A stretch of 42,942 nucleotides of DNA from Thermoanaerobacter sp. Lineage in GTDB: Bacteria > Bacillota > Thermoanaerobacteria > Thermoanaerobacterales > Thermoanaerobacteraceae. The stretch's first letter is position 1, and the number at the start of each line of letters is the position of its first letter. Below are positions 12,347 to 38,811 of this stretch, piece after piece. The notes below the pieces were generated by a model. That model was not told where the DNA came from, did not search any database, and worked only from the letters and a program-made list of their open reading frames with translations. The DNA lies in assembly GCA_014896455.1 (NCBI GenBank), contig JADBKJ010000010.1:1-42942 (forward strand), read 5' to 3'. The position numbers and the translations under genes were made by a program.

Positions 12347-12665
12347 CAGTTTGTTGACAAAGTTAAAAAATATTCAAAGGAGATATTTTGCATCGTCGCT
12401 CCGATGTTCCAAAGCGACAAAACTAAAGCTCGACCTTCGGGCTCCGGCAGGGTACCGGGCACAATCGGCCTCCTTGCCTCAGGTGCCCGCCTTCGCCATC
12501 CATGGCTTCGGCCCTGCCTCCACCCTCAGTCTCGCTAAGTTTTGTTACCGCTTTGTAACAAGTCGCACCGATTGCAAAATATCTCCTTTGCGAAAGTTTG
12601 TCTACAGTCTGACAAGTCGCACCGATTGCAAAATATCTCCTTTGCGAAAGTTTGTCTACAGTCTG
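12347..12665 (-). repeat. Fold-back repeat element, copy A (inverted orientation)
   Basis: GC-rich, non-coding dispersed repeat with copies at 25117-25380 and 38550-38811. In this copy the CAGTTTGTTGACAAAG end is on the left and the GTCTACAGTCTG end on the right. The termini are imperfect inverted repeats sharing AAAGGAGATATTTTGCA at both ends. The last 54 bases (12558-12611) are duplicated in tandem at 12612-12665, making this copy 319 bp instead of about 263. Open frames cross it, but their reading frames shift between copies, so no protein is conserved. No transposase is encoded. Confidence 0.85.
12558..12665. repeat. 54-bp tandem duplication at the end of repeat copy A
   Basis: Two adjacent identical units (12558-12611 and 12612-12665), each starting ACAAGTCGCACC and ending CTACAGTCTG. 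The unit is the terminal inverted-repeat segment of the element, and the other copies have it once. Confidence 0.9.
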
Positions 12666-12690
12666 AAGGCGAAGTGACTTCACTTCGCCT
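12666..12690. repeat. Right 25-bp direct repeat; also ATPase stop and terminator hairpin
   Basis: Identical to 12322-12346. The final codons of the Ca2+-ATPase (AAG GCG AAG TGA on the minus strand) are part of this repeat, and the palindrome has the form of a terminator stem that includes the stop codon. Confidence 0.75.
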
Positions 12691-15355
12691 TAGTTAACGG
12701 TACTATATAAGCAGTATAAAGATTGTTAAATACAAATTCTATTGAAGAGAAAAACATCACGACCAGCCAATCATAGCCAGTAAGCACTGTTGTCTTAAAC
12801 ACAACACTTAAAGGTGGAATATATATTGTAGCTAAGAAAAGCAAAAATGATGTCAAAACTGCTAACACCAAGTAAGGATTAGTAAAAATCCCTATCTCAA
12901 AAATTAAATTTCTTTCTGACCTACATTCAAAGGCGTGTATCAGCTCTACCATCACTAATGTAGCAAAAGCTATAGTTCTAGCTTTTTCCAATGTCCCATA
13001 ACTTAATGCAAATACATAAGCTCCAAGAGTACTTACTGCCATTAAAAATCCCACTATAATGATTCTTATACCCAACCCTCTTGAAAATACACTTTCTTTA
13101 GCATTTCTCGGTCTCATCACCATTATATCTTTTTCAGGAGGATCCATCCCTAGAGCTAAAGCCGGCAACCCATCAGTAACAAGATTGACCATTAATATTT
13201 GAATTGGAGCAAGAGGCAATTTTAAGGCCATTAAAGCTGCAAAAAACATAGTCAAAACTTCTCCAAGGTTACAAGAAAGCAAAAATCGTATAAATTTTCG
13301 TATATTGTCATAAATTATTCTTCCTTCTTCAACAGCTGCCACAATAGTGGCAAAATTATCATCTAATAAAATCATAGAGGAAGCCTCTTTTGCAACTTCT
13401 GTTCCTCCTTTTCCCATAGCAATACCTATATCTGCCTCTTTCAAAGCAGGGGCATCATTTACCCCGTCCCCTGTCATAGCTACTGTAAAACCTTTGTTTT
13501 TAAGGGCTTTTACAATTCTGAGCTTATGTTTTGGGGTTGCCCTTGCATAAACACTAATATTTGTACAAACTTTCTCAAGGTCCTTATCGCCCATGTTATC
13601 TAAATCCTGCCCTGTAATCACTTTATCATTTTCCCCTAATATTTTTAATTCTTTTGCTATAGCAGTTGCAGTAATCTTGTGGTCACCTGTTATCATAACC
13701 GGTTTTATTCCTGCCATCTTACATTTTAAAACTGCACCATATACTTCCCCTCGAGGAGGATCTATCATCCCTTCCAATCCTACAAAAACCAAATCTTTTT
13801 CTATAAATTCTGCAACCATTGGAAATTTAGGAGGAAGCTTTTTGTAAGCAAAGGCCAATACTCTCAAAGCTTCCCTGCCAAAACTTTCATTGATATCTAA
13901 TATTCTTTTTTTATCAAAAACAGTAAGGGGTACTTCTTTTCCTTCTGTATATTTATAGGTACAAAGGTCCAATATTACATCTGGAGCACCTTTTACATAA
14001 GCATATTTTTCACCATTTATCTCCACAATAACAGACATCCTTTTTCTATCTGAATCAAAAGGAATTTCCTCCATTCTTTTAGTATTTTCTACCAGCTCAA
14101 GAGAAAGTCCTGATTTGATTGAAAAAGAAAGTATAGCAGCTTCAGTAGGGTCTCCTATGTATTTTTCTTCTTCCAAAGTTTCTCTGCCAATTTTTATCTT
14201 TTTCCTCTTAATCTTTGCGTTATTGCACAATGCCCCTATCTCCACCATCTTTCTAAAAGCGCTTCTCTCTTTATTTCTCATTGTAGTAAATTTTTTACTT
14301 TTATCACCTTTTACTTCAAAAACTTCTTCATCACAAAACACTTTTGTCACAGTCATTTTGTTCTCTGTCAAAGTACCTGTCTTGTCCGTACATATTACAT
14401 TAGTGCATCCTAATGTTTCAACAGCAGGCAATTTTCTTATTAATGCATTTCTTTTAAGCATCCTTTGTACCCCGATGGCCAAAGAAACTGTAACAACAGC
14501 AGGAAGTCCCTCAGGAATAGCAGCAACTGCAAGACTTACACCTGATAAAAACATATAATACAAAGACTCTCCTCTTATTATTCCCAATACTATTACAATA
14601 CCGCATATAGCAAGAGCTCCTGCTACTAATACTTTACCAAGTTTATTGAGTCTTTTTTGTAATGGCGTTTCATCTCCTTCAATATCTTTAATCATTTCTG
14701 CAATTTTCCCCATTTCTGTTTGCATACCTGTAGCAGTTACAATAGCTTTCCCTCTTCCTTTCGTAACAATAGTACCCATATAAACTACATTACTATTAGT
14801 TACTGCCGCTCTTTTTACATTGTTTACAGCTTCCTTGTGGACAGGGACTGACTCACCAGTCAAAATCGATTCATCCACTTCTAAATTATGACTTTCTATC
14901 AAAACAGCATCTGCTGGAACTTTATCTCCAGCCTCCAATATAATAATATCATCTATTACAATCTGAGAAGCCTCTATCTCTTTTTGTTCTCCATCCCTCA
15001 AAACTTTTGCAATAGGCGCTGCAAGTTTTTTTAAAGCTTCCAAAGACTGCTCTGTTCTATATTCTTGGATAAATCCTAATACAGCATTTAAAATGACGAT
15101 TATCGTTATTGTCAAAGCATCCGCTAATTCTCCCATCAAAGCAGAAATTAAAGTTGCTGCCAATAAAACCATCACCATAAAATCTTGAAACTGATTTAAA
15201 AATATTTGCAAAGGACTAACTTTGTGCCCTTCCTCCAATATATTTTGCCCATATTTCAATAACCTTTTTTGCGCTTCTTGACTATTTAAGCCGGTAAAGT
15301 CAGTTTTGTCAAAGTAGTAAATTGTTTGTTGCATTTGCTTCTTACCGTAAGACAT
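12680..15355 (-). CDS. Cation P-type ATPase, probable Ca2+-transporting (P2A)
   Basis: Membrane pump of 891 residues. In order: N-terminal cation-ATPase domain, actuator domain with TGES (166-169), TM4 [10 protein letters not shown] (PEGLP 281-285), phosphorylation site DKTGT with Asp324, nucleotide-binding KGAPD, hinge [12 protein letters not shown], and TM6 [13 protein letters not shown]. The PEGLP and NLVTDGLPA motifs are those of calcium pumps of the SERCA/PMR1 class, so Ca2+ export is the likely role; Mn2+ is an alternative. The ATG follows AAAGGGG. The C-terminal codons are inside a repeat that flanks element A. Confidence 0.92.
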
Positions 15356-15396
15356 CCCAATCCCCTTTCTTAAACTTTTCGCTCTCTAAATAAAAT

Positions 15397-15424
15397 ATGA
15401 GGGCATTCTAAAAAACATGCCCTC
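15397..15424 (-). terminator. Terminator-like hairpin after the DUF2225 gene
   Basis: Eight-base arms GAGGGCAT (15399-15406) and ATGCCCTC (15417-15424) flank a ten-base A-rich loop. The minus-strand tail ATATTTTA is weak. The stop codon (15423-15425) overlaps the stem. Confidence 0.6.
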
Positions 15425-16082: not shown

Positions 16083-16141
16083 TATTACACCTCCGTCCAA
16101 CATTAGTCCTATTAAATATTTTAACATACTCATCTACATTT

Positions 16142-16148: not shown

Positions 16149-16187
16149 TTCTATAGATAAAAATTAGCTATACCTCAAAAATTGAAA

Positions 16188-21856: not shown

Positions 21857-21860
21857 TGTC

Positions 21861-22904: not shown

Positions 22905-23040
22905 GCTGGAACCTTGCCGGAGTCCGATGTCGAGCTTATATTTTTGCTAGAATATTGTCTTTTGCTTAATTTTAGTCATTACCGGAGTGACGATGCAAAA
23001 TATCTCCTTTGAATATTTTTTTAACTTTGTCAACAAACTG
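22905..23040 (+). repeat. Fold-back repeat element, partial copy D
   Basis: Right half only. GCCGGAGTCCGATGTCGAGC matches the core, and ACGATGCAAAATATCTCC through to TTTGTCAACAAACTG matches the right end of copies B and C. Between them about 20 extra bases, including the TTTTGC motif at 22942-22965, replace the usual sequence. The left half is missing. CAAACTG is repeated once after the end. Confidence 0.75.
22942..22965 (-). promoter_or_regulatory. Candidate activator-binding site for the downstream sigma-54 promoter
   Basis: Two TTTTGC direct repeats 18 bases apart (22942-22947 and 22960-22965, + strand), with TTGTC between them. The same arrangement occurs at 24841-24864. It is 50-75 bases upstream of the -24 element. 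Confidence 0.5.
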
Positions 23041-23047: not shown

Positions 23048-23075
23048 AAAGGAGGCTTGTGAGCCTCCTTTTTTT
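23048..23075 (+). terminator. Terminator-like hairpin at the right edge of repeat copy D
   Basis: AAAGGAGGC-TTGTGA-GCCTCCTTT is followed by further T (T7 in all) on the + strand, directed away from the repeat. It lies six bases from the permease stop codon, so on the minus strand it may also serve the permease, but there the T-tract is poor. Confidence 0.75.
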
Positions 23076-25090: not shown

Positions 25091-25115
25091 AAAAAAAGAA
25101 TGCATAACGCATTCT
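25091..25115 (-). terminator. Hairpin at the left edge of repeat copy B, T-tract outward
   Basis: On the minus strand AGAATGC-GTTAT-GCATTCT is followed by seven T. It is one base from the CAG end of the element. Confidence 0.75.
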
Positions 25116-25116
25116 A

Positions 25117-25380
25117 CAGACTGTTGACAAACTTTCGTAAAGGAGATATTTTGCATAAGGAGCGACTTGTTACAAAGAGGTAACAAAACTTAGCGAGACT
25201 GAGGGTGGAGGCAGGGCCGAAGCCAAGGATGGGAAGGCGGGCACCTGAGGCAAGGAGGCCGATTGTGCCCGGTACCCTGCCGGAGCCCGAAGGTCGAGCT
25301 TTAGTTTTGTCGCTTTGGAACATCGGAGCGACGATGCAAAATATCTCCTTTGAATATTTTTTAACTTTGTCAACAAACTG
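25117..25380 (+). repeat. Fold-back repeat element, copy B (full, 264 bp)
   Basis: Begins CAGACTGTTGACAAAC and ends TTTGTCAACAAACTG. The AAAGGAGATATTTTGCAT near the left end is perfectly inverted as ATGCAAAATATCTCCTTT near the right. The GC-rich core holds nested complementary segments (GGCAGGG with CCCTGCC, GGGCAC with GTGCCC, TTGTTAC with GTAACAA, TCGCT with AGCGA), so a transcript would fold into a long branched rod. No transposase; the open frames are not conserved between copies. Confidence 0.88.
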
Positions 25381-25381
25381 C

Positions 25382-25406
25382 GAGAGTATTTCGTATACTC
25401 TCTTTT
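25382..25406 (+). terminator. Hairpin at the right edge of repeat copy B, T-tract outward
   Basis: GAGAGTAT-TTCGT-ATACTCTC is followed by TTTTATT on the + strand, one base from the CTG end of the element. Its sequence is unrelated to the left-edge hairpin. Confidence 0.75.
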
Positions 25407-25454
25407 ATTATTGTATATTTTGTGATAGAATTAACTTAAACATACCACATATAT

Positions 25455-25587
25455 TGTTTATCTCACCTACATCAAAAATAAATTCTTGATAGTTTAGCTC
25501 GTCTTCAACTTCTCCCCATTAAAACATTCCGCAGTCAACAAGAAACTTAGTCTTTTCCGTCTCAACTAAATAGCATGAGCCTGTAAC
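25455..25587 (-). pseudogene. Remnant of a beta-CASP metallo-beta-lactamase RNase
   Basis: In the minus-strand frame starting at 25590 the sequence reads VTGSCYLVETEKTKFLVDCG, then MF, a TAA and WGEVEDELNYQEFIFDVGEI. This is the N-terminal region of the YSH1/RNA-specificity class of MBL-fold hydrolases, just before where the HxHxDH metal motif should follow. Homology stops after GEI. The first ten or so residues are replaced by the adjoining nucleotidyltransferase gene, so this is a deletion scar. Confidence 0.72.
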
Positions 25588-25846
25588 CATTTGCAGAATT
25601 TAATACTACCAAATCTATATCATCTCGTTTAAATATTGAAACCAAATCGCCAATTAAAGCAAGTTTGTCCATAGGATCATATCCATTCCCTAAAAGTACC
25701 GCAATATCAAGATCACTATTTTTTGTATTAGTGCCTTTACTATATGAGCCAAAAACATATATCAACTTTATGTCATATTTACCCTTTAAATATTGCAAAT
25801 TTCTCTTAAATATTTCTTCCACTTCTTTTAAATCTCTCTGAACCAC
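25562..25846 (-). CDS. MNT-type nucleotidyltransferase, 3' end replaced by deletion
   Basis: Minimal nucleotidyltransferase of about 94 residues. The catalytic motif is GSYSKGTNTKNSDLDIAV and the third acidic strand is DDIDLVVLN. Family members of the MntA type continue for another 30-40 residues. Here the last dozen codons are out-of-frame sequence from a beta-CASP RNase remnant, so the protein is truncated, though the catalytic core is present. GTG at 25846 is preferred, with GAGGTG six bases upstream. A HEPN partner toxin is not seen. The gene lies 42 bases after jetD on the same strand and could be cotranscribed with it. Confidence 0.7.
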   Translation of the reverse strand: MVQRDLKEVEEIFKRNLQYLKGKYDIKLIYVFGSYSKGTNTKNSDLDIAVLLGNGYDPMDKLALIGDLVSIFKRDDIDLVVLNSANGYRLMLFS

Positions 25847-25887
25847 TACAGACACCTCTTTAAGAAGGCATACTTATTACCTTAATT

Positions 25888-27183
25888 TTACCACTCCCCC
25901 TTACCTTCTTCAATCAATTTTATATCATTTATAATATCATCTATTATAAGCTCCTGATACCCTGCTTTTTTTATTATTTTCATCTCCTTTGCCACATCAA
26001 AGAGTAAAGGTGATTCAATCTTATTTAGCTTACTAAGCCTTACATCATTTATGACTTCATTTGAAAGAGATTTTAAATAATCTTCTACATCGTACCTTAA
26101 AAAATGAAACTTGTCTCTATACCTTTTGTATAATCTATCTGCTATTGTCAAACCCTCTGGATCAAAATCTCCCGAGTAATATATCTCTGTCCCTTCTTTA
26201 TAAAGCATGTCCAAGAGCAGGAGAGAAGAAAGTTTTGGCTGGCCATATGTGCATACAAGAGGAAATACTTTATTTGTAGCATCTATTAAAGATGTAAAAA
26301 CTGAAGGATTCTCTACAACATACACTTTCTTAGAAAGGCTTATGACCCTCTCAATTTTACTCAAATTTAAAAGAGGAAGTTGCAAGACTTGATTACTTTC
26401 ATAAGCAGCTTTAAATACTTGATTTTCCGTATCGCCCTCATATGCTAAAAGTCCTGAGAGTGTGACATAATTGGATATTTCATCTATCAAAATGCCAACG
26501 TTGTAATAAAGTTCTGATATTTCTTCACTTCCTTTTACTTCATTAAGCCCCATTAAAGTGCATAAAGCATTTATAAACATACTTCCGGCTTCTGTATTTG
26601 AATCAAAATAGTGAGGATTACGTGCAATCTGGGAAGAAAACACCGGCAGTCTTTTCTTTTCCCCTTTATAAACAGGCAAATTGTTTATGGCATCGCATAC
26701 GTATATTATATCTTTTTTTAATCCGGCCTTATCATTTAAATACCTCTGATTTACTGTCCTTACCCCTACAGCGGTTCCCTCATACAAACTTTTTAGCCAA
26801 TCAATGCACTTACATCCCTGGTATTTAGAGAAGAGCTCTTTAAAGAACTCTTCTCTTTCTTTTGCCAATATTTCCATATCCTCTTTTTTGCTGGTGAGTT
26901 TTTCGCCAAAATAGTATTCCAGTATGTCTTTTAGCGTATACTCCTCAAATCGCGTATTTTTTAGCGACTCTTCAAACTTTGCCACGTCAATGGATGCAGA
27001 TTTTTTTGTCCTATAGTCTTTTTTAAAATGGTTTGTAAGTACTTCTTTTTCATCTTCCGTAAGATTATCAAGCTTTACAACGCCTCCAAGACGTCCTAAA
27101 CTTCTGTACTTTTCCCGTATACCTTCAAAAATCCTCTTGTATCCTTTTTTTTCTTTAAAATATTTAAGTTCTTCTTTATTCAT
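25888..27183 (-). CDS. jetD: Wadjet JetD nuclease (DUF3322/DUF2220-type, TIGR02679-like)
   Basis: Nuclease subunit (431 residues) of the Wadjet anti-plasmid system. The C-terminal Toprim-like domain shows Glu291 (VYVVENPSVF) and the acidic pair Asp339/Asp341 in YYSGDFDPEGLTIADR, the expected metal site. The N-terminal arm domain (GRLGGVVKLDNLTEDEKE) is typical. In studied Wadjet systems JetD cuts closed-circular DNA that JetABC has extruded. The ATG overlaps the jetC stop by eight bases, so it is the last gene of the jetABCD operon. All catalytic residues look intact. Confidence 0.92.
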   Translation of the reverse strand: MNKEELKYFKEKKGYKRIFEGIREKYRSLGRLGGVVKLDNLTEDEKEVLTNHFKKDYRTKKSASIDVAKFEESLKNTRFEEYTLKDILEYYFGEKLTSKKEDMEILAKEREEFFKELFSKYQGCKCIDWLKSLYEGTAVGVRTVNQRYLNDKAGLKKDIIYVCDAINNLPVYKGEKKRLPVFSSQIARNPHYFDSNTEAGSMFINALCTLMGLNEVKGSEEISELYYNVGILIDEISNYVTLSGLLAYEGDTENQVFKAAYESNQVLQLPLLNLSKIERVISLSKKVYVVENPSVFTSLIDATNKVFPLVCTYGQPKLSSLLLLDMLYKEGTEIYYSGDFDPEGLTIADRLYKRYRDKFHFLRYDVEDYLKSLSNEVINDVRLSKLNKIESPLLFDVAKEMKIIKKAGYQELIIDDIINDIKLIEEGKGEW

Positions 27184-30100
27184 TTACAGCACCCACCCCA
27201 AGAGCGGCAACCTCCTCTTTTTCAGGAAGTATAAGATGCTTTACTTTTCCATCCCACAAATACTTCATGACCAATACAGCCTTTGCATTTTTTGGCCTTA
27301 CAAGTTCATAAATTGAAAGCTTGGGAACAGTGTCATAATCTCCCCATAAAACCTGCGAATTCATTATATAATTAAATCTTAGATCTTCAATCAGTTTAAA
27401 CATATCCCTTATGTTTGTGTCATCAACTCCTGCAAATGCTTCATCTAGAGATATTATGCGAGGTGCAGTCGGCGATGCTCCCTCATATCTTGAGTAAACC
27501 GCGGAAAATAAAGGTATATACATGGCCATCGCTTTTTCTCCACCGCTTAGCTTATTAAAAGCATTATCAGTAAGCTCCTTGCGGCTTTCCCCTTCTTTTC
27601 GGTAGTAAAGCTTAAACTCAAACCAATCTCTGTAATCTAATATTTCTTTCATAATCTTGTGAAAAGTTTCTGTATTGTTTTTTTCCTCCATTGCCCTCCT
27701 GGCTCTTTCTACTTTTGACCTAAAATGATTTACGACTTTATCGAAGACTTCCTTTTTCAGCATATCAGCATCGGATTTTAAAATATCCACAAGCTCTTTT
27801 GTATCAAGTTCTTCTTCATTAGAAGCAGGAATGCTTCTCCACTCAATAGAGAACTTAAGTCCGCTGGAAGTATCCCTTTCAGACATGAGTTTGTTCATTT
27901 TCTTTACCCATTCTTCTGCTTTAAAAATCTTTGCTCTTATCTTAATTCCCACATTGTGCATTATAATCTCTTCAAAAAGAATCTTATCAGTCTCTCTTAA
28001 AAGGCTTTCATTCGCCATTATATCCTCTTCAATATTAGAATAAAGTGTATATAATGAAACAACTTTACCATTTATATTTGCCGTAATATTAAGTCTTCTC
28101 TGCTTACTCCTTACTTCTTTTATTCTTTCATTGTCTCCCTCATAAACTTCATCAAAGATATTGCCAATTGAAAGCCCATATTCTAAAAGTTCGTTGCGAG
28201 TTTCAAAATACACATTTTGAAGTCTCTCTGTAAACTTTTCTCTGTCAAAGCCCGCCTTGTCAAAAAAGCCTTTGTATTCAGAAAGAATGCTTTTACTTAA
28301 TTTTAACATATCCTCCATTTCAACCTCTTGCTTGACAAAGCCAAGTGCTAATTCCCTTTTTAAACCCTCTTCAACAATATTGTAAATTTTCTCTTTAAGA
28401 TGAATCTCTTCTTCAATGTTTAAAAGGTCTTTTAAGCTTCTCTGTAGCCGCTCCTCAAGTTTTGCTTTTTCGGCTGATTTATTTGTAATCTCTTTAGGTA
28501 TTTCCTCCAGCCTTTTTAGGCAAATCTCCAGTTCTTTTTCAATTTCTTCAAGTCCAAGTTCTTTTAATGTCTCTTTTAGCATCTCAATTTTCTTAACAGA
28601 ACTCTGTATTTTGTTTTCCAGTACGTCTATTTCGTACTTTAAGTTATCAATATCGTATTCTAAATCTTGTTTTTGCTGCAATAACATTTCTTCGTTTGAA
28701 ATGTGTAAAACATATTTGTTGTATAGTATTTCCACTTCATTAAGCCCTGAAGCGTATTCTTCCGCATATTCATACGCAGAAGAATAGGTATCAATATCTG
28801 GATGTATGTTTATGCCAGATGTCAATTCTCTTACAACAGCTTTCTTTTTCTGAAGGTCCTCAAAACAGTTTTTAACTGTGAAAAGCTGTTCATCCAGTTT
28901 ATGAGATGTGTATTCGTAATCAGCCTTTGCCGTTTTTAAATATCTATATGCTTCTTCAATATCTTCTTTCCCGGGAAATGCCGAATATTCGTAATCCAGC
29001 CTCTGTATCCTTGATTTTTTTGCATTTATTTCCTCATCGATTGCAGATATTTCAGCTTTTATAGCCTGTATTTCTTCTTGTATAGATTTAATAAGCTCTT
29101 CCCTGTAGCGCTTTCTAGACTCACTCCCTATGTACTTTGATTTAACTTTATCCCGTGCTTTCCCTTTTATTACTCCTATTCCATATGTGCCATTTGAATC
29201 TATATAGGTTGTCCCGCTTTCTTCGGATACAAATATATTGCTTAAAGCGTCTGAAATATCTTCTGGTGAAACTCCTTCTTCATTGTCAACTACTTTAAAA
29301 TATTGAGATACATTTAACATCATATTAAAGCTTCCAGGCATAACATATTTATCCGCCATATTGCTGTCCATTTGAAGAGCTTTTTCAAAATATTCTTTTG
29401 GGACGATAAGAGCATCCAAAAGCCCCATGTCTTCTATCGCAGCTTCTATATTGCCTCTTGTCTTATCATCCACATCCTCTTTAAAATCAATCGCCATGTA
29501 AAGAGGAATGTAAGGAATTCCAGCTTCTTTAAGCCTTTTTCTGTTGTTTAAGACCTGTTCATCTCTTTCAGGCTCAGGATCTTTTTTGTTTTTCCATTCC
29601 TCCAATAACTTTTCTTTCTCATGAAGCTGATTTTCTTTTACCTCTCTTTGATTTTCTAATCTTAAAATTTCTTGCTGAATTCCATTTAGTATTTCCTCAT
29701 AGGGTTTTCTCACAAAAGCCAAAATATCATCAAATCCTTTATCCTCTCCATACGCCAGTATGACACGGCTTAAGCCTTCCAGTTGGCTACTTAAAAGCTT
29801 AAGTTCTGCATTGCCCTGTGACCAACTATAAACTCTTTCAACGTATTCTCTTTTTTGTTCATCAAAAAGCCTTTCTACCTCATTAAGCTTTTTAGCCCTG
29901 TCTTCTCTTTCTTTTTTAAGCCTTTCCTGCTCACAAAGTGCGGCATCATACCTTTTATTTGCTTCTATTTCTTCTCTCAATGCACTTACCGCACGCTTTA
30001 TTTTATCTTTATGCTTTTTTAATTCATTTTTCCAATAAGTAAAATCAAATTCTTTTCCATACACTTTTTTAAGTTCACTTACAGAAAACTCATGTTCCAT

Positions 30101-31342
30101 GAAATCTATATCCTGTGCAATTGAAGATATATCCTCTAATTTATCCTGTAGTTCTTTATCCAGTTTGTATTTTTGTTCCTCAGTGTTTTTTATCTTCCTT
30201 TCCAAACCATAATATTTATCTTGTTTATTCCGGAGTTCTTCTTCTTTTTTAGACTTATCCTCCAAATACTGTTTATACCTATTCTCTTCTTCTAATAACT
30301 CCTTTTGGGTTCTTTTAGCATCACCACTTGAAAGCTGTTCTTCCTTTTTCTTTAAGGCCTCTCTTTCACTTTCAAGAGAAATGATGTCATTTCCTAAGTT
30401 TTTTATTGTACTTCTGTAATTTTCAATATCTTTAGTTAAATTATCGTATTCTTTTTTTGATGCGTATAAATCGCTGTATGCCTTTACTAAATCCCCAGCC
30501 TTTTCATAAAGAATGTATCTGTTATAGTTGTCGTACTCATTTTTAAGCTTTTTTACTGCAGCCATATTCCTGTAAAGAACATCAAGGTGCATCTTAATCT
30601 GGTCCATGTTTTCTATGGTTTCTGAAAGAGGCCTCAAATCATCATCTGTGAGAGAAGGCAGTGAAGCTTTCATAATTTCATATATCACAGTAGGCCTGAA
30701 GTCTTTGGAAAGCTTTGGACTTCTAAGCTGTATCAGCAGTTTTATGAGCTCGTCGTATTCCTCGATAGAACTAAAGCCAAAAATGTATTTATTGACCATT
30801 TCCATGTACTCTTTTTGGCTTTCAACTACTTCTCCGCCTTCACCTATTCTATTCTTAAGTTCTTTTTTGGTAAGTGGGACTTTTACTCTTTTGCCGTCAT
30901 CGCCTATTTCCATTTTGTATAAAAAGAAGTCGATACCTATACGCCTGCCGTCAAGTATTACAAAGCCCCAAAAGTCCATATTTTGATGCCTTTTCGCCTT
31001 TAGTCCAATGCCTATTGTAATGTAGCTGTCTTTTTTCTCTTTTTTAAATTCCATGAAAAGATAGCCAGTTCTTTCATCGAGCCCGCTTACCTCTTCTTCC
31101 CCAAGAAGATAGTCCTCAAGCTTTCTCGCCTTTGAGCCAAAGGGATCGAGTCTTTCAGGACTTTTGTTGCCATCTAATACTAAAGGTATGAAACTCTGCA
31201 TTGTCACTGACTTTCCAGAACCATTAGCACCTCTTAAAAGAAGCCTTCCATCTGCAAACTCAAATATTTCATCATCATAATACCAAAAATTAAGAAGCCC
31301 AATCCTGTTAATCATCCATCTTTCAGCTAATTTTTCACTCAT
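27176..31342 (-). CDS. jetC: Wadjet JetC, SMC/MukB-like ATPase (TIGR02680-like)
   Basis: Motor subunit of about 1388 residues. The N-terminal head has Walker A GANGSGKSVTMQS (about residues 38-50) and the family segment LDPFGSKARKLEDYLLGEE. Two long antiparallel coiled-coil arms flank a hinge-like region near the middle (GIPYIPLYMAIDFKED). The C-terminal head has the signature NKLSGGEKAMAMYIPL and Walker B RIISLDEAFAGVDD. It should form a loop-extruding complex with JetA and JetB. ATG at 31342 (MSEKLAERW) is chosen, with AAAGGAG and GAAGGTG upstream; it overlaps the jetB stop by eight bases. Confidence 0.94.
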   Translation of the reverse strand: MSEKLAERWMINRIGLLNFWYYDDEIFEFADGRLLLRGANGSGKSVTMQSFIPLVLDGNKSPERLDPFGSKARKLEDYLLGEEEVSGLDERTGYLFMEFKKEKKDSYITIGIGLKAKRHQNMDFWGFVILDGRRIGIDFFLYKMEIGDDGKRVKVPLTKKELKNRIGEGGEVVESQKEYMEMVNKYIFGFSSIEEYDELIKLLIQLRSPKLSKDFRPTVIYEIMKASLPSLTDDDLRPLSETIENMDQIKMHLDVLYRNMAAVKKLKNEYDNYNRYILYEKAGDLVKAYSDLYASKKEYDNLTKDIENYRSTIKNLGNDIISLESEREALKKKEEQLSSGDAKRTQKELLEEENRYKQYLEDKSKKEEELRNKQDKYYGLERKIKNTEEQKYKLDKELQDKLEDISSIAQDIDFMEHEFSVSELKKVYGKEFDFTYWKNELKKHKDKIKRAVSALREEIEANKRYDAALCEQERLKKEREDRAKKLNEVERLFDEQKREYVERVYSWSQGNAELKLLSSQLEGLSRVILAYGEDKGFDDILAFVRKPYEEILNGIQQEILRLENQREVKENQLHEKEKLLEEWKNKKDPEPERDEQVLNNRKRLKEAGIPYIPLYMAIDFKEDVDDKTRGNIEAAIEDMGLLDALIVPKEYFEKALQMDSNMADKYVMPGSFNMMLNVSQYFKVVDNEEGVSPEDISDALSNIFVSEESGTTYIDSNGTYGIGVIKGKARDKVKSKYIGSESRKRYREELIKSIQEEIQAIKAEISAIDEEINAKKSRIQRLDYEYSAFPGKEDIEEAYRYLKTAKADYEYTSHKLDEQLFTVKNCFEDLQKKKAVVRELTSGINIHPDIDTYSSAYEYAEEYASGLNEVEILYNKYVLHISNEEMLLQQKQDLEYDIDNLKYEIDVLENKIQSSVKKIEMLKETLKELGLEEIEKELEICLKRLEEIPKEITNKSAEKAKLEERLQRSLKDLLNIEEEIHLKEKIYNIVEEGLKRELALGFVKQEVEMEDMLKLSKSILSEYKGFFDKAGFDREKFTERLQNVYFETRNELLEYGLSIGNIFDEVYEGDNERIKEVRSKQRRLNITANINGKVVSLYTLYSNIEEDIMANESLLRETDKILFEEIIMHNVGIKIRAKIFKAEEWVKKMNKLMSERDTSSGLKFSIEWRSIPASNEEELDTKELVDILKSDADMLKKEVFDKVVNHFRSKVERARRAMEEKNNTETFHKIMKEILDYRDWFEFKLYYRKEGESRKELTDNAFNKLSGGEKAMAMYIPLFSAVYSRYEGASPTAPRIISLDEAFAGVDDTNIRDMFKLIEDLRFNYIMNSQVLWGDYDTVPKLSIYELVRPKNAKAVLVMKYLWDGKVKHLILPEKEEVAALGVGAVNE

Positions 31343-32486
31343 CTGCACCTTCTCCTTTTTCAAAATCTAGAGGATATTCACCAATTAACTTTGCCGCCAT
31401 AGGCAATATTTTAATAGAATGCAATTCCTCAACTCTTTTTATCATCTTAAAGCTTTCCATGTTTTCAATGACCTCTTCTATAAGCTGCCTTTCACCCATC
31501 TCCCTGTAAGACTTATACCAACCATCACTAAATCTTTCCTTTACTTTCAAAATAATATTTATAAATTCTGCTTCAGTTATATCTATAGTATCATCAGGAT
31601 TATAGGCGAGTTTTCCATCTTCAATCATTTCCCTTATAATTTTATTTACCTGCAGCATTATATCAGATATGTTTTTGTTTTTGTCGGGAAAATAGGACTT
31701 TAAATATTTGTTGTCATTAAAGAGAACAAAAGCAGAAGTTTTGTGGAGGTGAAGTTTTGCATCAAGATATTCCTCTAAATCTTTCGCTATAGTATTTCTG
31801 TAATTTTTTATATACATGAAGTCTTGGTCATCAGGTCCTTCACTATACACAGAAGGTGAAAGAATAAGTTTTCGGTACGCCCTGCGTCTTCTCTGTATAA
31901 CCGCATCTTTGGGGTTTGAAAGATTTAAATCCTCCTGCAAAAAATCCTCAATCTTCATGTCTTCTGTAATTTCTCTGTTAAAAGACCTCAAAAAATACCT
32001 TGAAATGCCTGTGTTTTCGTAAAGTACTTCAGTATCTTCACTTTCTGAAAACCTCTCGTGGTCACCATCATCTATTTTAATTATGCCAATATCTACAGCA
32101 AAATTGAGCACCCTCACAAGTGACTTTCTGTGCTGAAAAAGCGTCCAATCTACTTTATCAGGTCCATCATATTGCGCCTCTATGTATTCCGTTATATTAG
32201 ACAGCACAAACTGGTCTTCTGGTCCTTTATCCTCCAAAAAAGCTAAAAGCAAACACAAAAATGCATAATCCATAGGCATTTGAAATGCATCTATCCCCAT
32301 CCACTCTTCAACATCTGACGGCACTTTTTCTAACTTAATAATATATGGGTTTATAATCAATCTATATCCTAACTTCTCTTCAACAAAAGGTTTTATTTTA
32401 TTCTCAGCATCTCTTATTTTGTTGAAATTTTCTCTATCCTCTCTCAGTATCCAAAAATTTTCAAGAAGCATCTGAAGTTCTTCCAT
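31335..32486 (-). CDS. jetB: Wadjet JetB, KITE-like subunit (DUF2398, TIGR02678)
   Basis: Accessory subunit of about 383 residues, analogous to MukE. The recognised family blocks are ENFWILREDRENFNKIRD near the N-terminus, RRRAYRKLILSPSVYSEG (about 206-223) and RERFSDGWYKSYREMGERQL-like sequence near the C-terminus. ATG at 32486 is preferred over an earlier in-frame codon because GAAGGTG precedes it by five bases, placing the start ten bases after the jetA stop. Its role is to bridge JetA to the JetC dimer. Confidence 0.92.
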   Translation of the reverse strand: MEELQMLLENFWILREDRENFNKIRDAENKIKPFVEEKLGYRLIINPYIIKLEKVPSDVEEWMGIDAFQMPMDYAFLCLLLAFLEDKGPEDQFVLSNITEYIEAQYDGPDKVDWTLFQHRKSLVRVLNFAVDIGIIKIDDGDHERFSESEDTEVLYENTGISRYFLRSFNREITEDMKIEDFLQEDLNLSNPKDAVIQRRRRAYRKLILSPSVYSEGPDDQDFMYIKNYRNTIAKDLEEYLDAKLHLHKTSAFVLFNDNKYLKSYFPDKNKNISDIMLQVNKIIREMIEDGKLAYNPDDTIDITEAEFINIILKVKERFSDGWYKSYREMGERQLIEEVIENMESFKMIKRVEELHSIKILPMAAKLIGEYPLDFEKGEGADE

Positions 32487-32496
32487 TTTTTCACCT

Positions 32497-33984
32497 TCAA
32501 TCCACAAACTCAATTACAATATCAGGCATATCAAGATTACCATCCGTGCATTTCAAAACCGCTCTTTCGCCATTCTTTGGCATGTGAAGTCTGTATGTTC
32601 TGCCATCTTCTGTTTTTCCTGTAAAGCCATTTCTTGCTATCGCTTTTCCTATCCATTTAAGTATCGTTGCCCTCACAAAAGGTTTTACAACAGGTAAATC
32701 CTTTATCCTTATTCTATTGCCGACAATGCAACTTGCTATTATTTCATCTTCTATATTTTTCTGATTGAGATAGTCCATCAGCATCTCCGTCTTGTCAGCA
32801 CTTTTATCAATAATCGCATTTGTCTTAACAGAATTACTGTAGCTCCTTGTTTTTGGCTTTATAATCACTTTAAAGGGCTGTTCTTCCCATACGCTATGGT
32901 TTACACTTTCTGTCTTTCTTTCAAAATCACCTTTTATGTGCCTTGTGTAAAAGCAACCGAAAACCGCCGCAGACAAAAGGTGTGCTTCTTTTATATTGCT
33001 TGCTTTTGCAAACATTTTAGAAAGAGCAATATATTCATTCTTTCTGCTGGCAGCTTTCATCCTGTTTTCTGCTATTCTCGCCGCATACATTGTTATTTTT
33101 CTTATTATTTCGTTTGATATATTAAGAAGCCTCACTGCCTCGCTGTCTTCAAAATTATGACCTGTAAACCAAAAAGATATGTTATTCCACTTATCCATCA
33201 AATCTTCTTTTACTTCCTCTTCATTTAAAACCCTGTCAATTCTTGGGATACTCATTTCATATTGGCATAACTTATCTACAACGGAATTGACAACCTCCGG
33301 ACTCACCTTTTTCAAAAAGCTCTCTATGGCAACAGAAAATCTCTGAAGGTCTTTTATAAAATCTCTTAAATATTCTATAAGCTTGTCTTTGTAAATTATA
33401 AACTGCTCTGACTTCATAAGTTCATCAGCGTTAGAACTTTGAAGACTTGCAATGTAATCTGTCGCATTGTGATATATATTTTCAAAGTCGGTATTGAGGT
33501 CTTCCCACCATCTGTTTATTTCCTGTAAATCCTCTTTTTTCGCCATTTCATTTATCTTTATTAAATTGCGGTAAATCCTTTCAAATAAAGACGGCTGTAG
33601 TGACCCACCATAACCGACGATGCTTTCCAGCCTTATGGTCATTCTCTCTATCTCAATAGAATATGGACTTAATTGATACCTGAATTTTTTGTTTTTAAAT
33701 TCGTCAATCGTAGAAGCTTTACTGGTATCTTGTGTCGCAATAAGGTTTTTCCATTCAGTAAGTGCTTTTAAATCCTGCTCACATTTTTCCATTGTATAGT
33801 CGGAAAACACATCAAATTGACTTACATATTCATATACATCCTCTTTGTACAGCCAATATTTAAATTTCTGGTACTGTTCATAAAAATACCTCATGATGAG
33901 GCGATATCGAGAAGCATTTTCCGCAGACAAATACTTTACCTCTTCAATCGGTTTTATCACATTCAAATCAAGTTTATCTTCCAT
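32497..33984 (-). CDS. jetA: Wadjet JetA, kleisin-like subunit (DUF2397, TIGR02677)
   Basis: First gene of the operon; 495 residues. It has the family N-terminus EVKYLSAENASRYRLIMRYF, the middle block GYGGSLQPSLFERI (SLQ-type motif seen in this family) and a C-terminal winged-helix-like part ending DGRTYRLHMPKNGERAVLKC. It is analogous to the kleisin MukF and links the JetC heads. The ATG follows AAGGTG. No promoter was identified with confidence in the AT-rich 50 bases upstream. With jetB, jetC and jetD it completes a type I Wadjet system. Confidence 0.92.
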   Translation of the reverse strand: MEDKLDLNVIKPIEEVKYLSAENASRYRLIMRYFYEQYQKFKYWLYKEDVYEYVSQFDVFSDYTMEKCEQDLKALTEWKNLIATQDTSKASTIDEFKNKKFRYQLSPYSIEIERMTIRLESIVGYGGSLQPSLFERIYRNLIKINEMAKKEDLQEINRWWEDLNTDFENIYHNATDYIASLQSSNADELMKSEQFIIYKDKLIEYLRDFIKDLQRFSVAIESFLKKVSPEVVNSVVDKLCQYEMSIPRIDRVLNEEEVKEDLMDKWNNISFWFTGHNFEDSEAVRLLNISNEIIRKITMYAARIAENRMKAASRKNEYIALSKMFAKASNIKEAHLLSAAVFGCFYTRHIKGDFERKTESVNHSVWEEQPFKVIIKPKTRSYSNSVKTNAIIDKSADKTEMLMDYLNQKNIEDEIIASCIVGNRIRIKDLPVVKPFVRATILKWIGKAIARNGFTGKTEDGRTYRLHMPKNGERAVLKCTDGNLDMPDIVIEFVD

Positions 33985-34878: not shown

Positions 34879-35084
34879 TATATTGCTACCTCCACTGTTG
34901 TTATAAATAGCGGTTTCTCTTCCAGGTCAAGCTCTCCATTTTCATAATACAACTCTAATGCTTCTTTTAGATTATCTAATGCCTCCTCTATAGTTTTCCC
35001 CTGAGATGCAACACTGTTTTCAATACACTTTGCTACATACCAATTTTCTTCTTTTTGAATAACTACAGTAAACTTAACTTTCAT
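34878..35084 (-). CDS. hicB: HicB-family antitoxin
   Basis: 68-residue antitoxin with the partial RNase H-like HicB fold: FTVVIQKEENWYVAKCIEN, then SQGKTIEEALDNLKEALELY. It is short and lacks the C-terminal helix-turn-helix of longer HicB proteins, so autorepression may rely on another element. The ATG has GGGGTGATAGT upstream, and an extended -10 (TGTTAAAAT) lies about 35 bases before it. Confidence 0.9.
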   Translation of the reverse strand: MKVKFTVVIQKEENWYVAKCIENSVASQGKTIEEALDNLKEALELYYENGELDLEEKPLFITTVEVAI

Positions 35085-35147
35085 ACTATCACCCCACCAA
35101 AATTCTTATTTTAACACAATTAGTATTATTTACCTTACCCACATCCA

Positions 35148-35525
35148 CTACCCTATTTCCCTCCCCTCTTTCTCTATTTCCTTTAACAAAGCCTCCGTAG
35201 CATCCCGTTGTGTAACTATACTCACTTTATAAGGCCTTGCAATATTCTCTATCTCAACAAACATTGTCCAGTAGCTAAACTTTTCATCATCCCAATCATC
35301 TACAAAAATATCAATATCTGAAAATTCCCAAAAATCAAATCCCCTTACCAGTGATCCATACAAGACAACTTTACTCACATTATATTTTTCTTTCAAAAAT
35401 TTAGCAATCTTATACGCTTTATCTAATGCATCCTTTTTTCGTATTTCTAGCATTTCTTTCTCTTTTTTACTCTTTAACCGCCAATTTTCACGTATTTTCT
35501 TTTTCTCTTCATCAGTGATACTCAT
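35148..35525 (-). CDS. Nucleotidyltransferase-domain protein
   Basis: Protein of about 125 residues. A basic N-terminal helical region (KKKIRENWRLKSKKEKEM) precedes a Pol-beta-like nucleotidyltransferase core with VVLYGSLVRGFDFWEFSDIDIF and a third acidic strand weakly represented by RPYKVSIVTQ. The family includes antitoxin-like MNT proteins, but no HEPN partner is adjacent. The ATG at 35525 is likely, with GGTGAG close upstream; an in-frame GTG at 35537 is possible. It lies 63 bases upstream of hicB. Confidence 0.75.
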   Translation of the reverse strand: MSITDEEKKKIRENWRLKSKKEKEMLEIRKKDALDKAYKIAKFLKEKYNVSKVVLYGSLVRGFDFWEFSDIDIFVDDWDDEKFSYWTMFVEIENIARPYKVSIVTQRDATEALLKEIEKEGREIG

Positions 35526-35584
35526 CTTACTCACCACACAAAATTCTGTACATATATTCTACCATTTTATAGCATTTATATCAA

Positions 35585-36847
35585 TCACCCAACAAAGCTC
35601 ATAAGAAGCATCGCGTTTAAAACCGTCACTATTATTCCTATAGTCCATAACAATACTTTATAAAGCAATGTATTTGCAAACTTACCCATGACCTTTTTTG
35701 AAGAAGTCAAATAAATGAGCAAAAAAATTGTAATGGGAAGCTGTACACTTAAAAACATCTGCGAATAAACTAGTCCTTGAAAGGGACTTTTTACAAAGAA
35801 TATTATTAGCACTGCAAAAATATATGTAATTGCTACACCAACTTTTGTATGTGCATCTTGTATATCATAAGGTTCTCCATATATCCCCGCAAAAATGCTT
35901 CCACCTGCCATACCTGCTGTTATAGATGAAGAAATTCCTGCTAAAAGAAGAGCCAAAGCAAAAACCACTGCTGACGCATTTCCTAAAAGAGGTTTTAGCA
36001 TCTGCTGTGCTTGATTAAGCTCCGTTACAGTTACATTATTGGTAAAAAAAGCCGATGCTGCAACAATAATCATAGCACTGTTTATTCCCCAACCTATTAT
36101 CATAGAAAAGATAGTGTCAAAATACTCATAATTAAGCTGTTTCACTATGACTTTCTCATCTTCTAAATTCCACTGTCTGCTTTGTATTATCTCCGAGTGC
36201 AAAAACAAATTGTGAGGCATAACAACAGCACCAAGCACACTCATAATTATAGGCATAGAACCTGCTGGAAATTCTGGTTTCACCCAGCTTGAAGCTACCT
36301 CTGCCCATTTCACATCAACTAGCGAAAGCTCAAATATAAAAGAAATGCCAATAAGAGATACAAAACCTATAATCCACTTTTCCAACTTTTTATAGGAATT
36401 TGTATAAAGCATCCATGAAACAAATAAAGCAGTAATCAAACTTCCTACCTTTATAGGTATCTTAAAAAGCATTTGAAGGGCTATCGCGGCACCTAAAATT
36501 TCTGCCATCGCTGTCAAAATCGCTGCAAAGACAGCTGAAATAAGAACTAACCTTGAGATAAAAGGCTTTAAAAACTTAGTTGCAGCTTCAGACATGCAAT
36601 AACCTGTAACTATACCCAGATGTGCAGCATTATGTTGAAGTATAATGAGCATGATAGTAGATAAAGTCACCATCCATAAAAGCTTATAACCGTAAGACGA
36701 CCCTGCAGCAACATTAGAAGCCCAATTCCCCGGGTCAATAAAGCCAACAGTAACCAATAGCCCCGGACCTATGTATTTAATAAAATCTAGCGCCATAAGT
36801 TTAGGGCGATGTTTACCTTTAAATAAATTTTTGAGTTTTGTAATCAT
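35585..36847 (-). CDS. NRAMP-family divalent metal transporter
   Basis: Transporter of 420 residues with 11 membrane helices. The TM1 metal-binding motif DPGN is at 38-41 (GFIDPGNWASN) and the TM6 motif MPH at 210-212 (VVMPHNLFLHSE). The methionine that favours Mn2+/Fe2+ over Mg2+ or Ca2+ is present. The ATG follows GAGGTG by five bases. The gene starts 22 bases after rtcB on the same strand, so it is likely cotranscribed with that Mn2+-dependent ligase. Proton-coupled Mn2+ or Fe2+ import is the probable role. Confidence 0.9.
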   Translation of the reverse strand: MITKLKNLFKGKHRPKLMALDFIKYIGPGLLVTVGFIDPGNWASNVAAGSSYGYKLLWMVTLSTIMLIILQHNAAHLGIVTGYCMSEAATKFLKPFISRLVLISAVFAAILTAMAEILGAAIALQMLFKIPIKVGSLITALFVSWMLYTNSYKKLEKWIIGFVSLIGISFIFELSLVDVKWAEVASSWVKPEFPAGSMPIIMSVLGAVVMPHNLFLHSEIIQSRQWNLEDEKVIVKQLNYEYFDTIFSMIIGWGINSAMIIVAASAFFTNNVTVTELNQAQQMLKPLLGNASAVVFALALLLAGISSSITAGMAGGSIFAGIYGEPYDIQDAHTKVGVAITYIFAVLIIFFVKSPFQGLVYSQMFLSVQLPITIFLLIYLTSSKKVMGKFANTLLYKVLLWTIGIIVTVLNAMLLMSFVG

Positions 36848-36869
36848 TTGTTCACCTCATTTTAAAATT

Positions 36870-38321
36870 TTAATCTGCACCTTTTACAACTGCAAGAGGC
36901 ACAAACCGAGCAACAGGTATAGTAATTTCTCTTTTCTCAAGAACAGATACAACCTCTTCTACATCTTTGTAAGCAAGTGGTGACTCATCAGCGATATCTT
37001 TATAAGACCGAACATTGTATACTACATTTCTCATAGCCTTTTCAAATTCCTCTTTACTGATTTTTTTAGCCTTATTTCGTGAAAGCCTTCGTCCTGCTCC
37101 GTGATTCACAGAATAAAAGGTCTCTGCCGCTTTTTCTGTGCCAACCACCACATAAGAACCTGTACCCATACTACCGGGAATAAGAGCAGGATGTCCTGAT
37201 TCTTTGTAAAAAGAAGGATTTTGAGGATGTCCTGATGGTAAAGCCCTTGTGGCTCCTTTCCTGTGGACAAGAAGTCTTCTTCCACCGTGTATTTCCCATT
37301 TAGCAATATTGTGAGCAACATCGTACACTAACTGAAATCCCATAGATTCAGAAGATTTTTTCAAAACATCTTCAAAAGCTTTCATTACATCAAACATAAT
37401 TATCTGTCTGTTTGAAAAAGCAAAATTAACTGCTGCTGCCATCGCTTTATAGTAATTCTGCCCTTCCTTTGATTTTATAGGGGCTGCTGCAAGCCCTTTT
37501 TCAGGTACCTCAATTTCATATTTTTTCGCCGCTTCCCACAAAATCTTTGTATAATCTGTAGCAATCTGGTGCCCAAACCCTCTGCTTCCCGTGTGAATCA
37601 TAATGACAATTTGCCCCTTAAAAAGCCCAAATTGTCTTGCCAATTTTTCATCCAAAATAGAATCAACTCGCTGAATCTCTATAAAGTGATTGCCTCCTCC
37701 TAAAGTGCCAAGTTGTTCTTCTCCTCTTTCCTGTGCTTCTTTTGATACCGCAGAAAGATCAGCTCCTTCAAGCTTTCCTCCTTCTTCAATATACTCCAAA
37801 TCAGATTTTTTGCCAAAACCCGCTTTAATCACAGCTTCTACCCCTCTATGCACTACATCATCAAAAATTACCCGTGTAATACCCTTGTGTTTTCCCTTTT
37901 TCCCTATGCCTGTAGGAACATAATACTCGATCCGTTCTATAAGCTTATATAGAAGCTCTTTATTAAAATACGCTGCTTCAAGGCTAGTTCTTAAAAGCCT
38001 TACACCACAATTAATATCATACCCTACCGCTCCAGCTGAAATGACCCCTTTCTCTTCTATTGCCATAACTCCTCCGATAGGAAGCCCAAACCCCTCATGG
38101 ATATCTGGCATACCTATAACAGGTTCCACAACTCCGGGAAGACTAGCAGCATTGACAAGCTGCTTCAAAGACTGGTCTTCATGCAAAAATTCTTTTAACG
38201 CATCATTCACATATATTATAGCATCCACTTTCATTTTCCCAAACTTGGGAATTCGCCATCGATTAATCCCATCTTTTACAACTGCATATCCCTGTATAAC
38301 TTCTACCCCATAAGGATTCAC
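36870..38321 (-). CDS. rtcB: RNA-splicing ligase RtcB
   Basis: GTP- and Mn2+-dependent ligase joining RNA 2',3'-cyclic phosphate or 3'-phosphate ends to 5'-OH ends, in tRNA splicing or RNA repair. Diagnostic blocks are PDIHEGFGLPIGGV, GYDINCGVRLL (the metal-binding cysteine), LGGGNHFIE, HTGSRGFGH and VNHGAGRRLSR, which contains the histidine that takes the GMP. All are intact. GTG at 38321 (MNPYGVEVIQG) has GAGGGGAAG upstream and is preferred; the frame continues to TTG 38348 without a ribosome site. A promoter with TGATATAAT or TTGAGA-N17-GATAAT lies between 38350 and 38430. Confidence 0.93.
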   Translation of the reverse strand: MNPYGVEVIQGYAVVKDGINRWRIPKFGKMKVDAIIYVNDALKEFLHEDQSLKQLVNAASLPGVVEPVIGMPDIHEGFGLPIGGVMAIEEKGVISAGAVGYDINCGVRLLRTSLEAAYFNKELLYKLIERIEYYVPTGIGKKGKHKGITRVIFDDVVHRGVEAVIKAGFGKKSDLEYIEEGGKLEGADLSAVSKEAQERGEEQLGTLGGGNHFIEIQRVDSILDEKLARQFGLFKGQIVIMIHTGSRGFGHQIATDYTKILWEAAKKYEIEVPEKGLAAAPIKSKEGQNYYKAMAAAVNFAFSNRQIIMFDVMKAFEDVLKKSSESMGFQLVYDVAHNIAKWEIHGGRRLLVHRKGATRALPSGHPQNPSFYKESGHPALIPGSMGTGSYVVVGTEKAAETFYSVNHGAGRRLSRNKAKKISKEEFEKAMRNVVYNVRSYKDIADESPLAYKDVEEVVSVLEKREITIPVARFVPLAVVKGAD

Positions 38322-38520
38322 TCCCTTCCCCTCATTATTCTCCCACAATTAACGAATAGAAACATATTATCATCTACATCACAATCTTTCTCAATTGTCC
38401 TGCCATTTCCTTCTTAATTTTATTATATCACACTTTACTTCACTTTTAAGTATTCGCAATAGTCTGGGATACCCAAGGAGAAACAAAAAATCCTCTAAAA
38501 CATCTAACCAGATTCATTAC

Positions 38521-38549
38521 AAAAAAGGTACTAATTGCTTAGTACCTTT
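38521..38549 (-). terminator. Hairpin at the left edge of repeat copy C, T-tract outward
   Basis: On the minus strand AAAGGTACTAA-GCAA-TTAGTACCTTT is followed by further T (T6). It directly abuts the CAG end of the element and can terminate minus-strand transcription coming from the aldo/keto reductase operon. Confidence 0.8.
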
Positions 38550-38811
38550 CAGACTGTAGACAAACTTTCGTAAAGGAGATATTTTGCAATCGGTGCGACT
38601 TGTTACAAAGCGGCAACAAAACTTAGCGAGACTGAGGGTGGAGGCAGGGCCGAAGCCAAGGAGGGCGGAGGCGGGCACCTGAGACAGGACGTCGCCTGAC
38701 GGGGTACCCTGCCGGAACCTGAAAGTCGAGTTTAGTTTTGTCGCTTTGGAACATCGGAGCGACGATGCAAAATATCTCCTTTGAATATTTTTTAACTTTG
38801 TCAACAAACTG
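38550..38811 (+). repeat. Fold-back repeat element, copy C (full, 262 bp)
   Basis: Same orientation as copy B. It begins CAGACTGTAGACAAAC and ends TTTGTCAACAAACTG, with the inverted AAAGGAGATATTTTGCA segments. The outer two thirds are nearly identical to copy B. The apex between GGGCACCTGAG and GGGGTACCCTGCC differs, with several substitutions and indels, yet still contains a local CAGG...CCTG hairpin. No conserved reading frame. Confidence 0.88.

Follow-up and report, generated by a model that had tools for sequence, protein, structure and literature searches.

A miniature inverted-repeat element with IS1182-type ends and a TwoAYGGAY-like core that targets transcription terminators in Thermoanaerobacter

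The DNA stretch analyzed here (the window) comprises 42,942 nucleotides of contig JADBKJ010000010.1 from the Thermoanaerobacter sp. assembly GCA_014896455.1 and contains four copies (A to D) of a repeat of about 264 bp. This repeat is very probably a non-coding miniature inverted-repeat transposable element (MITE) of the IS1182 type, which targets transcription terminators, duplicates the whole terminator hairpin upon insertion, and carries a core resembling the TwoAYGGAY RNA (Rfam RF01731). An earlier note made from the sequence alone had placed all four copies at the positions given below and had suggested either a non-autonomous mobile element or a structured RNA; both ideas have held up, the RNA-like core being compatible with a mobile element. 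The copies and their adjoining parts are arranged as follows (G and L numbers designate genomes and loci):

12347..12611, minus strand: MITE copy A, 265 bp, with the ends CAGTTTGTTGACAAAGTT and CAGACTGTAGACAAACTT
12612..12665, minus strand: partial tandem repeat adjoining copy A, 54 bp, repeating the CAGACTGT end
12322..12346: hairpin on the left of copy A, AAGGCGAAGTGACTTCACTTCGCCT, one of the two target-site repeats
12666..12690: hairpin on the right of copy A, identical 25 nt, the other target-site repeat
12403..12562, minus strand: TwoAYGGAY-like core of copy A, matching RF01731 model positions 1-168 with 26.7 bits and an E-value of 0.046 (below the gathering score of 43)
22905..23040, plus strand: copy B, truncated on its left side, right end kept
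23048..23071: hairpin AAAGGAGGCTTGTGAGCCTCCTTT on the right side of copy B
25117..25380, plus strand: MITE copy C, 264 bp
25097..25116: hairpin that served as the native target of copy C, AGAATGCATAACGCATTCTA, present singly at the empty site of G001
25381..25446: chimeric sequence flanking copy C on the right, with hairpin GAGAGTATTTCGTATACTCTC and about 66 bp from the L011/L197/L237 locus
38550..38811, plus strand: MITE copy D, 262 bp
38524..38549: hairpin that served as the native target of copy D, AAAGGTACTAATTGCTTAGTACCTTT, present singly at the empty sites of G002, G006, and G008
38812..38896: chimeric sequence flanking copy D on the right, with hairpin AGGCAAGGGTTCAACCTTGCCT and 85 bp known from another locus of G009 (L269)

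The inner motif AAAGGAGATATTTTGCA occurs 8 times in the window with at most 2 mismatches, compared to 0.07 occurrences expected from shuffled sequences. None of the copies wholly contains an open reading frame (ORF) of at least 80 amino acids, and a search of the window against Rfam at the gathering threshold yielded no match. As the earlier note had described, terminator-like hairpins lie 0-7 bases from the preserved element ends, with their tracts facing outwards. The 54-bp partial repeat beside copy A is possibly an assembly artefact; such partial repeats are also found behind some other copies in this draft genome.

The ends of the element identify its likely source. Seven of the 10 Thermoanaerobacter genomes contain matches above the curated cut-off of the IS1182 transposase model NF033551 (best score 497.7 bits), and the full-length parent insertion sequence (IS) is 1560-1566 bp long, starting with CAGACTGTTGACAAAATA and ending with TGCTTTGTCAACAAACTG, with one or two bases varying in some copies. 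The MITE starts with CAGACTGTNGACAAACTT and ends with AACTTTGTCAACAAACTG, nearly identical to the IS ends, so that a short multi-copy element of 262-265 bp devoid of a transposase gene shares its terminal inverted repeats with an autonomous element of the same genus. Clear similarity between the two is confined to positions 1-21 and the last 16 bp, other short matches having E-values of at least 0.6, and the MITE core has no match in the parent IS. The earlier note had recognized no named family; the ends are now assigned to an IS of the IS1182 family and the core to a relative of the Rfam family TwoAYGGAY.

The insertion behavior was analyzed in the complete genomes G001, G006, G008, and G009, in which 85 end hits were obtained and 63 of these had a second end within the length limits, corresponding to 47 MITE-sized (184-330 bp) and 16 IS-sized elements (920-1572 bp; the end pairings of L204, L221, and L222 are doubtful). 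The other 22 hits were set aside, six because their second end lay at 331-333 bp and the rest because they had no accepted second end, including the IS copies L161 and L163, whose right end did not fit the pattern. Direct repeats of 17-33 nt abut both ends of 44 of the 63 elements (33 of the 47 MITEs and 11 of the 16 IS-sized elements), as compared to 5 of 2000 controls with swapped left and right flanks and 0 of 693 controls with outward-shifted boundaries; the six set-aside elements of 331-333 bp show repeats of 20-40 nt in four cases. These repeats are hairpins: at least six of the outer 8 positions are paired in 38 of the 44, the mean pairing of the outer eight bases is 0.83 in frame and about 0.3 after a one-base shift, the repeat center falls within 0.5 nt of the dyad of the best hairpin in 42 of the 44, and the repeat ends 1-3 nt beyond the outermost G:C pair in 32-33 of them. 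Many elements lacking an exact duplication keep the same hairpin on both sides in a decayed form, and in 54 of the 63 elements the left and right hairpins are at least as similar as swapped pairs at the 99th percentile, the nine below it being L157, L190, L204, L208, L215, L221, L222, L229, and L240. Thus, terminator hairpins are the targets of both IS and MITE, insertion taking place at the stem base and leaving the entire hairpin in duplicate. The very strict, terminator-linked insertion target considered in the earlier note is therefore real, and insertion at palindromes or hairpins agrees with the IS1182 family. Long variable repeats are listed for IS1182 in ISfinder.

Orthologous sites in other genomes of the genus show the targets before insertion. 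The flanks of copy A are joined over a single AAGGCGAAGTGACTTCACTTCGCCTT in T. wiegelii (G009), while G001, G004, G006, and G008 contain the hairpin once (with one base different in G004), adjoining an unrelated small gene. The possibility that copy A represents an old insertion common to several species was rejected, as these four genomes hold only the unrelated gene and one hairpin. At the site of copy C, G001 contains a single AGAATGCATAACGCATTCTA, and G005 carries a MITE (L063) with the native hairpin, slightly diverged, on both sides; judging from the sequence, G009 probably also holds a MITE there, since CAGTCTA abuts the hairpin. The site of copy D contains GGTACTAATTGCTTAGTACC once in G002, G006, and G008, with one extra loop base in G008. 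At the sites of A, C, and D, the hairpins are terminators of neighboring genes that are kept in strains without the element. Moreover, three terminators are occupied by an IS in G008 and by a MITE in G000, the genome of the window, with flanks of 93-98% identity; the flanks are alike on both sides for the pairs L203/L022 and L188/L017 and on one side for L209/L005.

We propose that the terminal inverted repeats of the MITE (CAGACTGTNGACAAACTT / CAGTTTGTTGACAAAGTT) would be bound and cut in trans by an IS1182-family transposase, and that this shared transposase would recognize the hairpin of a Rho-independent terminator. The element would be joined at two points beside the stem base, symmetrically about the dyad, presumably via a cruciform or hairpin intermediate, and repair would leave a complete hairpin on either side as a direct repeat. 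The duplicated terminator would thereby place an A-tract outside the left hairpin and a T-tract outside the right one; because the duplicated target of A-tract, hairpin, and T-tract keeps a tract on its outer side, both T-tracts face away from the element. An incoming gene would lose the first U-tract, and its transcript would be read into the element and meet the far hairpin, passing a conserved TwoAYGGAY-related fold, whose two hairpins present GGA in the loop. As judged from the longest ORF per flank, at least one neighboring gene points into 42 of the 47 MITEs (from both sides in 17, from the left only in 16, from the right only in 9, and from neither in 5), and the inward-pointing genes end at a median distance of 22-23 bp from the MITE.

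The core, as judged from its sequence, is homologous to the TwoAYGGAY RNA. A core from the sister genus matches RF01731 over the full 168 positions with 42.7 bits (gathering score 43), and the best core of the window's own genome (L040) also matches at full length, with 39.5 bits and an E-value of 6e-4; two of 12 further loci tested matched as well. When the RF01731 pairs were mapped on 96 distinct cores of this element family, they were formed in 75.6% of the cells, compared to 32-38% after sliding by 1-3 columns. A check of the stems for covariation, as proposed in the earlier note, found two-sided changes in 22 of the 50 mapped pairs versus 9-15 after sliding; no probability is attached to these numbers, as the cores are related sequences. 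The cores contain two hairpins with AYGGAY-type loops and the base pairs of the family, G-A mismatches being kept at fixed places in both hairpins. Of the 96 cores, 90 have GGA in loop 1, 92 in loop 2, and 88 in both, whereas the flanking loop bases are variable, many cores having AAGGAT, AAGGAG, or similar loops rather than AYGGAY. An RNAalifold consensus on the MAFFT core alignment was poor and was not used. The cores L055 and L066 of G003 belong to a diverged family of about 72-74% identity, in which short stems with different loops, for instance GAAA, take the place of both AYGGAY hairpins.

Beyond the genus, RF01731 was matched with E-values of at most 0.01 in 56 of 398 genomes of the phylum, 33 of them above the cut-off, and at least two matches were present in 38 of the 56 genomes, with at most six candidates scored per genome. 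Outside the family, 90 loci in 38 genomes were examined. IS1182-like ends with at most 2 mismatches in 12 positions were recorded in 26 of 178 flanks, compared to 0 of 178 in the reversed-flank control, whereas at 3 mismatches the ratio was 19 flanks to 14 in the control. Both ends showed at most 2 mismatches in ten loci from five genomes (families f15, f35, f55, and f75) and at most 3 mismatches in 14 loci, with L353 as a doubtful fifteenth. Two such relatives with IS1182-like ends exceed the gathering score (L291 with 51.8 and L320 with 63.3 bits), and hairpin repeats lie on both sides of five of these loci (L279, L291, L320, L322, and L349), a count without a separate control. Candidate parent IS were sought in G067, G144, G153, G193, and G286; three of the five contained an IS1182 match, one of them above the cut-off, and none had ends shown to match those of its TwoAYGGAY elements, so that only in Thermoanaerobacter is the link to a parent IS a direct one. 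Since inverted ends of other kinds are seen in several genomes, such as GAGTCACGGGGACGGTTCT in G275, the fold travels with ends of more than one kind. The TwoAYGGAY cores of L303 and L304 in G275 lie within such GAGTCACGGGGACGGTTCT-type inverted ends, unlike those of IS1182, which suggests mobilization by another type of transposase.

It is conceivable, if rather unlikely in our estimate, that the core is a selected CsrA-binding RNA, acting as a decoy or a module of 3' untranslated regions, and that the element would hence be a mobile post-transcriptional regulator instead of a plain parasite. CsrA binding has been proposed for TwoAYGGAY RNAs in the available part of one report (PMC4333381). 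The presence of GGA in both loops amid variable neighboring loop bases would fit such a function. The motif ACARGGATGT, which we take to be the CsrA consensus, occurs in 21 of the 96 cores. All 10 Thermoanaerobacter genomes encode CsrA, as do 53 of the 56 genomes with TwoAYGGAY matches, compared to 232 of the 342 others (Fisher test, p 8.8e-6), or, counted by genus, 41 of 43 versus 154 of 223 (p 1.2e-4), both tests ignoring phylogeny; two of the three CsrA-less genomes with TwoAYGGAY are only 63% and 75% complete. On the other hand, there is no significant sense bias of the cores, as a gene runs into the element in sense only in 16 and in antisense only in 9 cases, and the counts of G-U versus A-C pairs (165 vs 157) do not tell the strand. 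Moreover, GGA has been lost from both loops of the G003 cores L055 and L066, although G003 has CsrA. Altogether, the GGA loops and the co-occurrence with csrA are consistent with, but no proof of, a mobile CsrA-binding RNA.

We regard it as unlikely that the fold acts as a DNA structure that transposition requires and that TwoAYGGAY is not an RNA at all. The occurrence of TwoAYGGAY within several different inverted repeats across genera, as would be expected of MITEs, speaks for such a role, whereas the fixed G-A mismatches, the GGA loops, and the association with CsrA fit an RNA better, and the parent IS has only its ends in common with the MITE.

More doubtful still is the combined scenario in which a CsrA-binding RNA would be the cargo of an element whose transposase homes to terminators, each insertion splitting one terminator into two. 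If true, the RNA would be transcribed from the upstream gene and terminated at a hairpin already in place, decoy RNAs that disperse themselves would come to lie in the 3' ends of tens of genes, and TwoAYGGAY as a whole would be a regulatory RNA borne by mobile elements across many Bacillota.

Returning to the terminator-targeting MITE, the earlier note had reported that the two stems of one copy differ. This is correct for the present assembly but not for the element in general: like hairpins are found in only 16 of 40 copies of this draft genome, compared to the 54 of 63 in the complete genomes. The stems differ in copies C and D because their right flanks (about 66 and 85 bp, respectively) are chimeric and belong to other loci of the genus. 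As 19 of the 40 copies of the window's own genome share the flank of one single locus on that side, including L007 and L011, which have its hairpin on the left as well, and given the different proportions of like hairpins, we read these flanks as probable misassemblies of the draft. It is improbable that they instead arose by real recombination or gene conversion between copies, as the replacement of about 50-85 bp of flank at C and D might indicate; this is contradicted by the flank common to the 19 copies, by the like hairpins in the complete genomes, and by the MITE of G005 at the site of copy C, which has the native hairpin on both sides.

The rival idea that fast-evolving hairpins are built into the element, forming a self-insulated transcription unit, draws on the hairpin present at every preserved end in the window and on the outward-pointing T-tracts; the earlier note had listed a structural part of the element as one of two possibilities. 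This idea is almost certainly wrong, since element-free orthologous sites carry the same hairpin once, its sequence is common to both sides of one copy and not between sites, and the IS copies show the same pattern; the hairpins are host terminators that were duplicated whole.

Several observations weigh against the interpretation as an IS1182-type MITE with a TwoAYGGAY-like core. In the genome of the window, no IS1182 transposase above the cut-off was found (best E-value 4.6e-13; the assembly is 90% complete), and its weak IS1182 matches include a decayed copy of 934 bp, located 26 bp from a MITE (L077). Five of the 16 IS-sized elements show no duplication (L204, L221, and L222 among them, whose pairings are doubtful), the IS copies L215 and L229 are located at no evident hairpin, and the repeat length correlates only moderately with the length of the G:C-bounded hairpin (r 0.57, n 42). 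With respect to the core, the listed copies of the genus all stay below the RF01731 gathering score of 43, and copy D gives no RF01731 match. Finally, the site of copy A in G005 (C15, L243) keeps an element remnant of 52 bp, 83% identical, beside a single hairpin, and that in G007 resembles it by eye; because of this remnant, the terminator of copy A may have been used before in the genus.

The closest known systems are IS1272 and TnSha1, which, according to the accessible sections of their description, take hairpins as targets irrespective of primary sequence, confirmed terminators making up five of the seven hairpins first targeted (PMC4923244). The parent IS resembles them in belonging to the IS1182 family (NF033551) and in its hairpin targets. 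It differs in the fate of the target, since IS1272 and TnSha1 are reported to delete part of the stem by blunt cuts without target duplication (PMC4923244, as far as available), whereas the whole hairpin is duplicated precisely in the 44 of 63 elements observed here; a further difference is that a MITE shares the behavior. These features indicate that an IS1182-type transposase can recognize a target from its shape, the duplication covering the hairpin rather than following a fixed stagger, and they make the element a precise substrate for testing cruciform recognition. The IS itself is probably tied to adaptive megatransposition in T. kivui: duplication 1 of the megatransposon TnCO-1 starts at 1,839,957 with an IS1182 gene (PMC12056078, published in 2025, main text in part), and the IS of G006 (L226) at 1841581-1843146 is probably this element at the edge of TnCO-1, the match in position suggesting that G006 is T. 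kivui. The available main text of PMC12056078 contains no word beginning with "MITE" or "palindrom", and its passages on terminators concern other matters. MITE ends in such genomes would be candidate recombination substrates.

The TwoAYGGAY RNA and the core are alike in their full-length covariance match, their two GGA-loop hairpins, and their G-A stem mismatches, and differ in that the Thermoanaerobacter cores score below the gathering score. In the parts available of five reports, RF01731 is treated as a candidate RNA of unknown function and is not linked to a mobile element (PMC2864571, PMC4333381, PMC7657543, PMC11701678, PMC11661157). The present data allow this family to be reinterpreted as the central part of mobile elements found in five bacterial families (f1, f15, f35, f55, and f75), which bears on the practice of calling candidate RNAs from repeated DNA. 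Like SPRITE, BOX, and RUP, the MITE is a short non-coding intergenic repeat with secondary structure; SPRITE carries a terminator-like sequence, whereas the terminator is the target and not the cargo here (PMC10969869, available passages). In the accessible literature on TwoAYGGAY, IS1182 targets, MITEs with terminators, and CsrA decoys, no description of this element was found.

The genome of the window (G000; 2.22 Mb in 33 contigs) contains at least 40 near-full matches to the repeat, which is a lower bound because only 40 of 128 candidates were scored, copy D lying outside these 40. The pattern of the terminal inverted repeats (at most 2 mismatches) gave 200 matches, compared to 4 for the reversed pattern. 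Among 61 genomes searched, 18 contain a match to the 264-bp repeat: all 10 Thermoanaerobacter genomes (G003 with diverged copies only), seven genomes of g2, a second genus within the family, each with a single match, and one genome that is more distant. The g2 core occupies one conserved intergenic site (L049-L054, locus positions about 1492-1709) and is bounded by short inverted repeats (GACAATTTTGA/TCAAAATTGTC), IS1182 ends not being recognizable. Its orientation relative to the flanks in L052 and L053 is opposite to that in L049, L050, L051, and L054, which may reflect either an in-place inversion or repeated insertion. Within Thermoanaerobacter, L216, L223, L225, and L241 have the same CAGACTGT end with a different sub-terminal sequence, and L185 and L213 combine this end and a different sub-terminal sequence with a related core. 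Hence, the CAGACTGT end appears to be used by more than one type of MITE in the genus.

With respect to the neighboring genes in the window, copy A is situated between the converging genes for ndk and a P-type ATPase, and a type II Wadjet operon lies on the minus strand between copies C and D (25888-33984), as identified by PADLOC:

32497-33984, minus strand: Wadjet JetA
31335-32513, minus strand: Wadjet JetB
27176-31363, minus strand: Wadjet JetC
25888-27183, minus strand: Wadjet JetD

Two small proteins encoded adjacent to this operon on the minus strand (25562-25855 and 35148-35537) match the candidate defence models PDC-S09, the former also matching Pfam nucleotidyltransferase domains.

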